Origin: an uncultured archaeon
GTDB lineage: Archaea; Halobacteriota; Halobacteria; Halobacteriales; Haloferacaceae
DNA length: 35,371 nucleotides
NCBI GenBank assembly: GCA_937138675.1
Contig: CAKZPG010000020.1
Coordinates: forward strand, 1-35,371
Direction: 5' to 3'
A program made the translations under genes and the position numbers. Positions 12,844 through 19,215 of the stretch are shown piece by piece. The notes beneath the pieces were generated by a model. It was not told where the DNA came from and searched no databases. It saw only the letters and a list, made by a program, of their open reading frames with translations. Every line of letters starts with the position of its first letter. The first letter of the stretch is position 1.

Positions 12844-14952
12844 TCAGAACGCGCCGAGCCGCGTCCGCTCGCCGGCCCGAAGGTACTCCGCGACCCGGTC
12901 GCGGCGCCAGCCAAATGGCGACAGAACACTCGTCGCGGCCCGCACGGCCCGGTCGCGATAGAACGCCGGGTCGTAGGCCGACGTGGCCTCACTTGCGAGG
13001 CGGACCCGGTCACGGTCGGCGCGCGCGTCGTCAACAACGACGTATCGGACGTCCTCGCCCGGGAACCGCTCCAGACCCCGGTCGCCGAGCCGGTCAAGCG
13101 CTGCGACAGAGCGGGTGTACTGCTGGTAGGCCGCCCGTGTCTTCGAAACCCGATTCGTGATCGCGAGGGCGGCGGGGTCGACGTCGCCGCGGCCGAGGTC
13201 AGCGAGGCGAACGCGCAGGTGGTCACACACCGCCTCGGGGTCGCGGGTCTCCCCGACGAGTCGGACGAGGTCGCGCTGAAGCTCCGCGACCCACTCACAG
13301 GTCGAGCGCTGGCGGCACTCGATACCCTTGAGTACGTAGTCGTCGCCGCCGGCGACAGCGCCGAAATATCGCGTGAGTGCGCCCGCCGCGGAGTCACGCA
13401 TCGGAACGAACGCCAGCCAGTCGTAGGCGTCCTCGTACTCCAGTTCGACCCCGACGTCGGCGGTAACCTCGGCAGCGACCGCCTCGAGTGGCCGCTGAGA
13501 CTCGCCCGGGCGGGGCGTGACCCACAGCGAATCGACGATACCGTGGACGACACGCCAGCCCCCCGCTTCGAGCGCGGCCTTCGCGTCGAGCAGTATCTCG
13601 CGGGCGTAGGCGTTGATCGCCTCGTGACACTCGATACGGCCGAACTTGGCGTTCGAAAACCCCTGATAGCCGAAACAAGAGACGAGGATCCATTTCAATG
13701 CCGATATCTGGCCGTCGAGAGCGGCGATCCGGTCGGGGTCCTCGGCCGCCGCGCGTTCGCGTTTCAGCCGAGCCCGGTCGTCGACCAGCGGGTCAAGAAC
13801 GTTGGCGAGGTAGCCGTCCGCCTCGCAGATCGAATAGCCCAGCCCCGGCACGTCGTCGGTGTCGTGACAGCCACACCGCGTCGTCTCCGGGCTAACGTTC
13901 CGCGTGATAATGATGTTTGGGTAGAGCGAGGCGAAGTCGAGTTCGTGGACATCCTCGTGGACGCCCGGCTGTGGCGCGAGCGTCAGCCCCCCGCGGTCGG
14001 CGTCGTGAAGCGTGCCCATCGACTTGAACCGCTCCGGGCGCCACGCGTTCCAGGGGACGAGAACGTGGCGCTCGCGCGCCGTGCAGACCTGAATCGCGGT
14101 GAGGACGTTTCCGATCGACGCCCACGCGAGCTCCTGAAGCGGCTTTCGCGAGCGCTCGACGAGGTCGAGACAGCCCGCGAGCCCCGACTGGTCCCAAAAG
14201 AACGTGTTCGACTCGTCGACGACGGCGCGCCCGGGGACGGCGTAGCGCGCCGGCGAGTGGCTCACACGGCCGTAGGACTCGTAGGTTGAGCGACCCGCGC
14301 GTTTCGTGTAGCCCGGGAGGCGCCCGAGCGCGAACGCCTCACGGCCAGCGTGGTCGGCCGTCGCGAACAGGCGCGGGATCACGGCGGCGTGTGACACCAC
14401 GAGAACGTCCGGGTCGGACTCGGCGAGGTGCTGGCCAACCGCGTCAACCACGGTCGCGGGCGCGCCGGTGACTGTCTTGTCGCCGACCGTCAGTTCTTGG
14501 AGAGGCGCCGCGGTGAGGTCGTGATCGTGGTCGTCCTCGCTCACGGCGAGTTGGAGCGTGCGGAGTTCACGGCCCGGACCGGGGTCGGTGCCCGTATCGA
14601 GACAGTAGCGAAAGCCCGGCGAGAGGTCGACGTCGTAACACCGGAACGCGTCGGCACCCTCGCGAGTCCGGATGGTGCGCGCGACGGGAGTGATCGCATC
14701 CATCCCCGCGACGTCCACCCGCAGGACCGGTTCGGGATCGTGACGCCACCCTCGGCGCTTCTCGGCGAAGCCCACGTCGACGACGGTGGGATGGACCGTC
14801 AGGTCCTGCCCGAGATTCGCAAGGGTGTCCTGGGACCGCCCGGTCGCGTACAGCGTCGGAGTGTACGCGGTGTCGACCGTCGCCTCGGCGCCGTCAGGCG
14901 TCGTCTCCCAGTAGCGGACGGCGCGATCGAGACAGTCGAAGGTGAACGCCAC
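12844..14952 (-). CDS. polB2: B-family DNA polymerase homolog with degenerate motif C (PolB2-like)
   Basis: Motif A LDFASLYPNIIITRNVSPET; motif B SALKWILVSCFGYQGFSNAKFGRIE; motif C reads VVHGIVDSLWV instead of YGDTDS. Confidence 0.88.
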   Translation of the reverse strand: MAFTFDCLDRAVRYWETTPDGAEATVDTAYTPTLYATGRSQDTLANLGQDLTVHPTVVDVGFAEKRRGWRHDPEPVLRVDVAGMDAITPVARTIRTREGADAFRCYDVDLSPGFRYCLDTGTDPGPGRELRTLQLAVSEDDHDHDLTAAPLQELTVGDKTVTGAPATVVDAVGQHLAESDPDVLVVSHAAVIPRLFATADHAGREAFALGRLPGYTKRAGRSTYESYGRVSHSPARYAVPGRAVVDESNTFFWDQSGLAGCLDLVERSRKPLQELAWASIGNVLTAIQVCTARERHVLVPWNAWRPERFKSMGTLHDADRGGLTLAPQPGVHEDVHELDFASLYPNIIITRNVSPETTRCGCHDTDDVPGLGYSICEADGYLANVLDPLVDDRARLKRERAAAEDPDRIAALDGQISALKWILVSCFGYQGFSNAKFGRIECHEAINAYAREILLDAKAALEAGGWRVVHGIVDSLWVTPRPGESQRPLEAVAAEVTADVGVELEYEDAYDWLAFVPMRDSAAGALTRYFGAVAGGDDYVLKGIECRQRSTCEWVAELQRDLVRLVGETRDPEAVCDHLRVRLADLGRGDVDPAALAITNRVSKTRAAYQQYTRSVAALDRLGDRGLERFPGEDVRYVVVDDARADRDRVRLASEATSAYDPAFYRDRAVRAATSVLSPFGWRRDRVAEYLRAGERTRLGAF

Positions 14953-14953
14953 G

Positions 14954-15259
14954 TCAGTCGGCGTCGGGACCGCCGAGTGTCGTCTGTGCGGGGTCAGGGG
15001 CGCGCCGGCCGCTGTCGACCTGCTGGTTGGCCTCGAGCGCCGTGAGCCGGCGTTCGTGTTCCAGCAGTGCCGCGACCAGAAGCGGCACCACCGGGTCGGC
15101 GTGGTTCAACATCCCCGCGGCGTCGGCGTGGGCGCGGCCGTGTACGAACAGCCGGTCGAAATGAGGGCGGTCGTGGCGGCGGAGAGTGCGCCGGTAGGCC
15201 TGCCAGCGCTGCTCGGTCGCCCGCAGCGCGTCGCGGTAGGTCGGACTAGTACGCCCCAC
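14954..15259 (-). CDS. Small helical hypothetical protein in the polB2 cluster
   Basis: MGRTSPTYRDALRATEQRWQAYRRTLRRHDRPHFDRLFVHGRAHADAAGMLNHADPVVPLLVAALLEHERRLTALEANQQ; tightly packed between the RecA-like and polymerase genes. Confidence 0.78.
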   Translation of the reverse strand: MGRTSPTYRDALRATEQRWQAYRRTLRRHDRPHFDRLFVHGRAHADAAGMLNHADPVVPLLVAALLEHERRLTALEANQQVDSGRRAPDPAQTTLGGPDAD

Positions 15260-15992
15260 TGGCGAGCACCTCCTGGGCAGCCGTGCTCACGTCACTCGCG
15301 TCACTCGCGTCGTACGCGCCGTGGCGGCGCTCGAGAACGGTGCGCCAGTACGCAAACGTCGTCTGGACCCAGCCGTCGCCCAGATCGTAGCTCAGTGTCT
15401 CGAACCCATCGCCGATGGGCCGGCCGTGCCGGTCGACGGCAGCGAATCGGGGGCCAAAGCGCGTCCGACGACAGCCGAGCCGGTGAGTACACGCGTCATC
15501 GACGGGGGCCGTGAACGCGTCTGTGTCGGTGCGGGTGAGCAACACCGGGCAGTCGTAGCGGTCGGCAACGGTCGTGACCGCCGCAACAGCGGATACGAGG
15601 AGGCGGCGGGCCGCGCCCCGCGGGAGGTCACCGGTGCGATACAACGCGTCGACCGCGGGACAGACCACCAGTGCGGGGGTGTTCTCCCCGTTTCGACAGC
15701 TCGTGCGGATCGCCTCGGCGAGCCGGCGACACAGTGTGTGGTGCTGGTATGGCGTGAACCCACGTGCGACCTGAATCCGGTCCAGACTGCGCCGTGATGG
15801 AGCGAGTGCAGCGAGGCGTGCCGCATCGGCGTAGCCGGCGGCGTCGACCCACCAGACCGGGCCGTCGGTCGTAAGAAGTTGGTCACAGGCGAGTGCGTGG
15901 ACAGCGCCCTGCACCCCGTCGGCCGTGTCGAGGACAGTCGGACCGTCGAGCGTCGGAAGTGCCGTTGCGGATGAACCGGGGGGGGCTGGCAT
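15246..15992 (-). CDS. RecA/RadA-superfamily-like protein without recognisable Walker A
   Basis: GPVWWVDAAGYADAARLAALAPSRRSLDRIQVARGFTPYQHHTLCRRLAEAI...TPALVVCPAVDALYRTGDLPRGAARRLLVSAVAAVTTVADRYDCPVLLTRTDTD resembles the RadA core order; 14-nt overlap with the next gene. Confidence 0.7.
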   Translation of the reverse strand: MPAPPGSSATALPTLDGPTVLDTADGVQGAVHALACDQLLTTDGPVWWVDAAGYADAARLAALAPSRRSLDRIQVARGFTPYQHHTLCRRLAEAIRTSCRNGENTPALVVCPAVDALYRTGDLPRGAARRLLVSAVAAVTTVADRYDCPVLLTRTDTDAFTAPVDDACTHRLGCRRTRFGPRFAAVDRHGRPIGDGFETLSYDLGDGWVQTTFAYWRTVLERRHGAYDASDASDVSTAAQEVLASGAY

Positions 15993-16038
15993 ATCAACAG
16001 TCGAATAGTGGTGAGTAGATAGCTCCGGGCGTGTGGGT

Positions 16039-16053
16039 TCCGATACTGCCGAT
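16039..16053. repeat. 15-bp element TCCGATACTGCCGAT, copy upstream of the RecA-like gene
   Basis: Identical 15-mer at 17122-17136; both intergenic, both upstream of minus-strand genes of the same cluster. Confidence 0.7.
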
Positions 16054-16064
16054 GGGCGGCGGTG

Positions 16065-17099
16065 TCACTCGACGACGTGGTAGCGCCGCCCGCGCTTCTG
16101 GCCGACCGCGTCGACGAGGTTGTACTGCGCGAGTTTCCCCATGTACTTCCGGACCGTGCGCTTGCTCTTTGGGTCACTCACGCGGTGTGCGTACTCGTCG
16201 TACAGCTCACCGGGCGCGATCTCACCGTGTTCGGTGGCGACCTCGTACAGCACCTGTTGGTCGGGAGTGAGCTGGGCGACGTTCTTCTGCCGGATCGCTG
16301 CCTTCGCCTCGGGAACCACGTCGGCCACGAGCTCGGTCGTGATCCGGTCGACACCGGCCGTAGTCGCCGCTCGTGCCGCCCGGCGAAGTGTGCCGATCGC
16401 GACCCGTGCGTCGCCTGCTGCGGAGTCGGCAACCTGGTCAAGCACCCCGGTTCCGATACTGTTGTCCGATAACCCCCAGCGAACGCGGTCTCTGAGAATC
16501 GCGACCAGAGCGTCACTATTGTAGGCGGCGAGGCGCACCCGGATACTGCTCTGTAACCGGCTTCGCAGTCGGTCGCCGAACCCCGCGAACAGCGTGTCTT
16601 CGCGGTTGGCGACCAGCACCATCGTGATATGCGGGATCGAGTAGAGGTCGTAGAGCGCCTTCGTATCCTGGAGCTGGTCGACCTCGTCGAGAATGATGAC
16701 GTACGGCGCGTCGTCCAGTTCGCGCAGGCGATTGAGCAGGACGTCCTGAGGCGTGGACTGCCGGTGGATGTCGTGTGTGCTTGTGACGGCATCAAGCACG
16801 CGATAGAGCGTACGGTACCGGTTGTAGTCCTCCCAGCAGTTGACATAACAGGTCTGCAGGTCGAGAACCTGCTCACGCAGGCGCTCTGTGACGAACTGCG
16901 CGAGGCAGGTCTTGCCCACACCGGTCGGCCCGAGCAGAAACGTCGTCTCGCCGGAGTCGCCGTCCGTGATTGGCGCGAGCGCGTCGCTGATCCGGTTGAC
17001 CTCGGGGTCACGGTGCTTGACCTCTTTTGGGATGAAGTCGTCCTGTAGCACCCGTGCGTCCTGAATCACTAACTTGGTCGCATGTGAGACGCCCGCCAT
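16065..17099 (-). CDS. Orc1/Cdc6 family AAA+ protein
   Basis: TTFLLGPTGVGKTCLAQFVTERL (Walker A), VIILDEVDQLQD (Walker B), GDARVAIGTLRRAARAA (sensor 2), C-terminal winged helix. Confidence 0.94.
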   Translation of the reverse strand: MAGVSHATKLVIQDARVLQDDFIPKEVKHRDPEVNRISDALAPITDGDSGETTFLLGPTGVGKTCLAQFVTERLREQVLDLQTCYVNCWEDYNRYRTLYRVLDAVTSTHDIHRQSTPQDVLLNRLRELDDAPYVIILDEVDQLQDTKALYDLYSIPHITMVLVANREDTLFAGFGDRLRSRLQSSIRVRLAAYNSDALVAILRDRVRWGLSDNSIGTGVLDQVADSAAGDARVAIGTLRRAARAATTAGVDRITTELVADVVPEAKAAIRQKNVAQLTPDQQVLYEVATEHGEIAPGELYDEYAHRVSDPKSKRTVRKYMGKLAQYNLVDAVGQKRGRRYHVVE

Positions 17100-17121
17100 T
17101 ATTAAACAGAACGGGGGGGCG

Positions 17122-17136
17122 TCCGATACTGCCGAT
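17122..17136. repeat. 15-bp element TCCGATACTGCCGAT, copy upstream of orc1/cdc6-like gene
   Basis: Identical to 16039-16053. Confidence 0.7.
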
Positions 17137-18294: not shown

Positions 18295-19215
18295 TCAGTG
18301 GTTCCCGAGCTCTATGTGCTCGCGGTCGCCGCGGTCTGTCGGTGCGACGTTCGTGGCGATGATCTCGTCTACTTCGTCGCGATTGTCGGCGTCGCTGTTG
18401 ATACTCCGTGTCGCGCCCTCAATGTCGACGTAAAAGCCGGCATCGTCGTACATTTCGGCCATAATGCCGCTGTTGCTTAAAACGACGTGAACACCGTTCT
18501 GGGTGAGCTGCTGTGCGAGTTCCACCAGCCGCTGTTGGTCCTGCTGTCCGAAGCCCTCGGCACTGTAATCGGTGAACTGCGCCGTTGGACTCATTGGTTC
18601 GTAGGGCGGGTCGAAGTATACTAGGTCGCCCGCCGCAGCGTACTCGCGGATATACTCGAGATCCCGATTGAGTATCTCGGTGGATTCGAGCACAGACCCA
18701 GCCGATCGGATTTCGTCGCGTCTCACCCAGTCCGGGTTCGCGTATCGGCCGACGGGAACGTTGAACTCGCCGCTCTGATTCTCGCGATAGAGTCCGTTGT
18801 AGCACGTCCGATTGAGATAGAGCAACAGCGCGGCCTCGTCGAGACTGTCGAACGGCTCGTCGTTCGGACGGCGGTTGAACAACTCGCGTTGCTGGTAGTA
18901 GTAGTTCTCAACCCCCGTTTCCTTCCGGGTGGTATCGGCGAACGCTCGGCTGGTGTCCGGCTCGCTGTCGGGGTCGGCGAACGAGTCGAGTCGGTCGACC
19001 AGTGCGTCGGGCCGGTCACGGACCTGTCTGTAGAAGTTGACCAGCCGTGGATTCGTGTCGTTGATGCTCCCGGCTCCCGGTTCGAGGTCGAAGAACAGCG
19101 CCCCGCCGCCGAACATCGGCTCGTGATAGCGGTCGAACTTCGCAGGAAAGCGCGCGTACAGCTTGTCAAGCAGCTGGCGCTTCCCGCCGGCCCACTTCAG
19201 AACTGGATCGACCAT
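18295..19215 (-). CDS. D12-class (Dam-type) N6-adenine DNA methyltransferase
   Basis: VDPVLKWAGGKRQLLDKL, MFGGGALFFDLEPG, LVYFDPPYEP. Confidence 0.94.
   Translation of the reverse strand: MVDPVLKWAGGKRQLLDKLYARFPAKFDRYHEPMFGGGALFFDLEPGAGSINDTNPRLVNFYRQVRDRPDALVDRLDSFADPDSEPDTSRAFADTTRKETGVENYYYQQRELFNRRPNDEPFDSLDEAALLLYLNRTCYNGLYRENQSGEFNVPVGRYANPDWVRRDEIRSAGSVLESTEILNRDLEYIREYAAAGDLVYFDPPYEPMSPTAQFTDYSAEGFGQQDQQRLVELAQQLTQNGVHVVLSNSGIMAEMYDDAGFYVDIEGATRSINSDADNRDEVDEIIATNVAPTDRGDREHIELGNH

Follow-up and report, generated by a model that had tools for sequence, protein, structure and literature searches.

In a 35,371-nucleotide stretch of DNA from an uncultured haloarchaeon (the window), we found that the gene for an arORC2-type Orc1/Cdc6 protein and the operon iRadA-PPB2-PolB2 downstream of it carry an identical 15-mer, ATCGGCAGTATCGGA (box A), just 5' of the TATA element in both the orc and the iRadA promoters. 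The module is the known PolB2 operon with an upstream arORC2 gene, and at the protein level the window is one more member of a family already in the literature. Based on the distribution and position of the box, we consider it likely that the PolB2 mutasome operon is under local Orc control, with arORC2 activating both its own gene and the mutasome in response to damage.

A preliminary description of this DNA had placed four co-directional genes on the minus strand, and all four open reading frames are present where it put them. They encode PolB2 (positions 12844–14952; 702 aa, GTG start), PPB2 (14954–15259; 101 aa, GTG start, arCOG07300-like), iRadA (15246–15992; 248 aa) and the Orc1/Cdc6 AAA+ protein (16065–17069). 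The iRadA and PPB2 genes overlap by 14 nt, and those of PPB2 and PolB2 are spaced by 1 nt. The translated Orc has intact Walker A (GPTGVGKT) and Walker B (VIILDEVD) motifs and matches the Cdc6 lid and AAA families, together with a weak winged-helix match (E 0.11) and a TIGR02928 score of 173 bits, slightly below the cut-off. The gene and strand of orc had been assigned correctly, but its start had been put at 17099; relatives align from GTG 17069, and ATG 17099 overlaps the TATA-like sequence TTTAATAA, so the true start is probably GTG 17069, giving a 334-aa protein. A gene for a D12-class adenine-specific DNA methyltransferase (PF02086, E 1.8e-53) is located at 18295–19215 on the same strand.

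Makarova 2014 (PMC4104785) describes an operon in which arCOG07300 and PolB2 are joined by an inactivated RadA (arCOG07763 and relatives), and gives arORC2 as its neighbour in many euryarchaea, with haloarchaea mentioned. Timinskas 2025 (PMC11791011) names iRadA and PPB2, reports enrichment of Orc1/Cdc6 around archaeal polB2, and models a complex of PolB2, iRadA and a PPB2 trimer as a translesion "PolB2 mutasome". The window has the same genes in the order iRadA-PPB2-PolB2, with the same substitutions, MGRT arm, DR loop and Orc neighbour, and we saw no difference in the proteins. By contrast, the parts of these two papers covered here make no mention of a promoter box common to orc and iRadA. 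The preliminary description was right that the module is conserved and mutasome-like in its role, that one partner is a degenerate RadA and another a 101-aa helical protein, and that an Orc is associated with it; each of these points had been proposed earlier in the same two papers.

We next surveyed the genomic context of PolB2, using a genome search; a contig scan with PolB2 as the query gave no relatives. Among 121 genomes of the class, 82 had a PolB2 scoring over the family cut-off, and 80 neighbourhoods were examined. In 77 of the 80, iRadA and PPB2 lie 5' of PolB2 and co-directional with it, a linkage far above chance. In about half of the loci, an Orc resembling that of the window lies upstream in the same orientation, and no extra gene in the orc-iRadA interval is universally conserved among relatives. 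The polymerases fall into two bit-score classes, one at ~1400 bits that is highly conserved and often on secondary replicons, and one at ~780–1100 bits that is diverse and includes the window. Individual loci depart from the common layout. Two loci of the megaplasmid class, one of them in Haloferax volcanii, have a gene for an SRAP-like (abasic-site protection) protein between orc and iRadA, as reported for PolB2 neighbourhoods; three loci have ~1 kb of extra DNA between PPB2 and PolB2, in which we recognised no common gene; and three PolB2 genes of the highly conserved class have neither iRadA nor PPB2 in the stretch examined.

The polymerase belongs to the PolB2 subfamily of the B family (NF004418, 990.9 bits against a cut-off of 692; DNA_pol_B, E 2.3e-25). 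As previously noted for this sequence, motif A (LDFASLYPNII) and motif B (KWILVSCFGYQGF) are retained and motif C reads HGIVDS. This form of motif C is the family norm, being found in 74 of 81 haloarchaeal PolB2 proteins, and the first motif-C Asp is missing in all 81. The DRGG loop is likewise present in 81/81, and we equate it, from its position rather than from an alignment with Sulfolobus PolB2, with the D(K/R) loop described before the palm. With regard to the degenerate proofreading domain of PolB2 polymerases, the window protein gave no match to the exonuclease-domain family. The missing Asp and the lack of an exonuclease-domain match would fit a truly non-catalytic PolB2 acting only as a scaffold, along the lines of the ImuA/ImuB logic invoked in the preliminary description. 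However, the motif A Asp, the second motif-C Asp and the core motif B residues are invariant across the 81 proteins, implying that the active site is used. Moreover, Sulfolobus islandicus PolB2, which has I-x-D in place of D-x-D, is reported to be an active translesion extender in PMC8764526 and as summarised in PMC11791011, and the latter summary adds that the Sulfolobus enzyme, which has IID for DxD, is needed for targeted mutagenesis. We therefore consider a scaffold-only polymerase very improbable, and the label "inactivated" outdated.

Because a PolB2 with I-x-D is active in S. islandicus, Pol V (UmuC-UmuD'2-RecA) is a closer parallel to the module than ImuA/ImuB. In each of these systems a translesion polymerase is accompanied by a RecA-fold partner, but Pol V and ImuA/ImuB are based on Y-family polymerases, whereas the window polymerase is of the B family and thus not a Y-family ImuB. 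The RecA-like partner does lack a Walker A motif, as had been claimed: no G-x-x-x-x-G-K-T occurs in iRadA. Neither iRadA nor PPB2 has a family match above cut-off in Pfam or NCBIfam, iRadA having no Pfam match at all. A family profile built from 46 iRadA sequences matches RadA/Rad51 in the PDB (E 2.5e-13), and Foldseek aligns the AlphaFold2 model of iRadA (pLDDT 84) with RadA, Rad51 and Dmc1 (E ~1e-10, probability 1.00). The protein thus has the RadA fold but is without its helical N-terminal domain. PPB2 begins VGRT, read as MGRT from its GTG start codon, within an N-terminal MGRT-PTYRD arm in which M1, G2, R3, P6 and T7 are invariant among 44 sequences. Its model is all-helical (pLDDT 90.8), and a fold search with it gave no significant match; the sigma-factor-like resemblance given for PPB2 in the literature was obtained by Dali only, according to PMC11791011. 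By analogy with the published work on relatives, PolB2, as an active B-family translesion extender, would most likely form a holoenzyme with iRadA and trimeric PPB2.

The two copies of box A in the window are at 17122–17136, 52 nt before the orc GTG at 17069, and at 16039–16053, 46 nt before the iRadA ATG at 15992, both on the minus strand and each 5' of a TATA-like element; the first aligns with the box A of relatives. They are the only exact copies of ATCGGCAGTATCGGA in the 1.86-Mb assembly (80.6% complete), with 0 further copies at one mismatch and 4 at two. Relatives have the tandem repeat TATCGGAAnTATCGGAAAC at the same positions in both the orc and the iRadA promoters, from which the window box differs at a single base of one half-site (TCGGCA for TCGGAA). 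De novo motif searches recovered CGGAAaa..CGGAAaC from the iRadA upstream regions (LLR 203, as against 86–96 for shuffles) and TtcCGGAAAC.ACCCgGT from those of orc (LLR 220, as against 68–78). Box A with at most one mismatch was observed before 32 of 77 iRadA genes, where 0.7 were expected, and before 20 of 37 orc genes (0.6 expected), with the end of the box ~44–52 nt before the start codon and 5' of the TATA element.

Across 16 genomes, the box A pattern occurred 82 times and its reversed control 4 times, although the reversal alters the dinucleotide make-up, so that the background is understated, and many of the single-mismatch matches are inside open reading frames. The exact intergenic matches in these genomes are mostly before orc genes. 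Box A was also found before the gene for an HNH protein at one locus, near tyrosine integrase genes at two, and, on the plus strand of a fourth, in a position common to a divergent orc and a gene for a 110-aa protein. These cases may be further members of a box-A regulon, or mobile elements, and box A is therefore not exclusive to the module. We did not find the box A sequence in open-access full texts, and a promoter code common to orc and iRadA appears to be unreported.

A different element takes the place of box A at 16 loci that have no adjacent Orc. There, the iRadA promoter has CACTTTCACTTTCAC (box B), 15 times at no more than one mismatch where none was expected. Box B is the published Halobacterium UV-B element, TTTCACTTTCA, reported from the upstream regions of radA1 and top6B, two Halobacterium genes induced by UV-B (PMC2556686), and it is in the corresponding place, ~50 nt before the start codon and 5' of the TATA element. 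In those species the haloarchaeal PolB2 operon is thus tied to a UV element already in the literature. By contrast, the window and the other arORC2-linked loci have box A instead, and a box scan found the UV-B element absent from the window promoters. A reversed-pattern control was uninformative for box B, whose pattern is nearly identical when reversed.

In many genomes box B is also found before radA, top6B, PCNA, an Orc1-like gene and threonine dehydratase, all named by eye from their sequences. At thirteen such loci it is 35–51 nt before radA, top6B, PCNA-like or Orc1-like genes, a distribution that makes for a candidate damage regulon wider than reported; at eight others it precedes threonine dehydratase genes by >110 nt, and the leader that separates them is conserved. 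In several genomes, the mutasome is on box A while radA keeps the UV-B box. We also considered control of the mutasome by box B in the genome of the window itself. The sole exact match in this genome is before a 55-aa open reading frame, weaker matches precede threonine dehydratase and an RPA-like gene, and radA has a half-type box, indicating that this genome does not have its mutasome on box B.

Box A and arORC2 occur together. An arORC2 gene is adjacent at 20 of 32 box-A iRadA loci and at no box-B iRadA locus (Fisher 2e-5). Where box A is present without an adjacent Orc, an arORC2 gene (at least 46% identity) is found elsewhere in all eight genomes, as against 0 of 10 genomes with box B only (Fisher 2e-5); in this count, one genome with a 44% match was scored as lacking arORC2, and two genomes were set aside in which one copy had box B and another had arORC2 nearby, in each case after seeing the data. 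Since the genomes are phylogenetically related, the Fisher values overstate independence and serve only as guides. Five of the distant arORC2 genes carry box A as well. In a tree of Orc proteins, box A or a palindromic form of it is present in 39 of 58 promoters on the arORC2 side and in 0 of 11 outside, with the window row labelled as box A by hand and the deep branches poorly resolved; about one third of the promoters on the arORC2 side have no box under the scoring rules used.

Archaeal activators usually bind upstream of the BRE and TATA elements, which is where box A is located. This position, the resemblance of the CGGAAAC core of box A to the haloarchaeal ORB-like element quoted in PMC3528665, and the precedent of Sulfolobus Orc1-2, an activator of damage genes (PMC9738581), lead us to read arORC2 as an activator. 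The orc and iRadA-PPB2-PolB2 transcription units would use one promoter box; arORC2, an AAA+ protein whose ATPase motifs are intact, would most likely bind the ORB-like tandem box A and, after DNA damage, most likely activate its own gene together with the mutasome, as Orc1-2 does with its own motif. The Orc had been listed as an additional part of the complex, but it is better read as a regulator, tied in by the promoter boxes, than as a subunit.

The resemblance to Sulfolobus extends to several features. Both there (PMC9738581) and in the window, an Orc-family protein with intact ATPase motifs has the box in its own promoter, and the element is found in both its own and target promoters, in the window as identical 15-mers; in addition, PolB2 (Dpo2) is damage-induced in Sulfolobus. 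The elements themselves differ, however, the Sulfolobus one being ANTTTC and those here ATCGGCAGTATCGGA and the tandem repeat of relatives; the latter two are putative regulatory elements, and we make no claim of orthology. No ANTTTC-type element is present in the window box, ACTTTC occurring only within box B.

Two other roles for arORC2 have to be weighed against that of an activator. Orc/Cdc6 proteins are usually replication initiators, the CGGAAAC core is common to box A and the haloarchaeal ORB-like element (PMC3528665), and many PolB2 loci are on megaplasmids, so the boxes might be origin recognition boxes, with the operon beside an origin and serving an alternative initiation pathway, as suggested in PMC4104785. 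The arrangement of the boxes argues against this, and we regard it as unlikely: box A is a single tandem unit at a fixed ~44–52 nt before start codons, with no inverted repeats around an AT-rich element and no G-string after the box; the orc-iRadA gap that holds the iRadA box is only 72 nt, too short for an origin; and the intergenic stretch 5' of orc has no further copy at up to three mismatches. Alternatively, arORC2 could repress the operon as a LexA-like switch that is released on damage. Autoregulation through a common box would fit repression too, and the same operon is linked with lexA in bacteria, according to PMC11791011. Such a switch is also improbable, given that the box lies 5' of the BRE/TATA, at the place usual for an activator, and that Sulfolobus Orc1-2 activates damage genes. 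Activation by arORC2 thus remains our preferred reading.

Taking the two boxes together, we lean towards the view that the haloarchaeal PolB2 mutasome has two interchangeable damage switches, either the UV-B element, which it would have in common with radA, top6B and PCNA, or the new ORB-like box, read by a dedicated, self-driving arORC2. If this is true, Euryarchaeota, like Sulfolobales, have an Orc/Cdc6-type damage regulator of the polymerase. Both classical model haloarchaea are poor test beds, their PolB2 operons being disturbed by transposons: on pHV4 of Haloferax volcanii (52000–66500), orc12, SRAP, iRadA and PPB2 are followed by a TnpB-family gene and then polB2, and on pNRC200 of Halobacterium NRC-1 a transposase is directly before an orphan polB2 with no partners. 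Haloprofundus salinisoli, on the other hand, has the arrangement of the window with two perfect boxes. The promoter boxes provide a concrete and testable candidate regulator and operator for the haloarchaeal damage response, the regulator being unnamed in the literature we found, and they suggest why polB2 travels with Orc genes.
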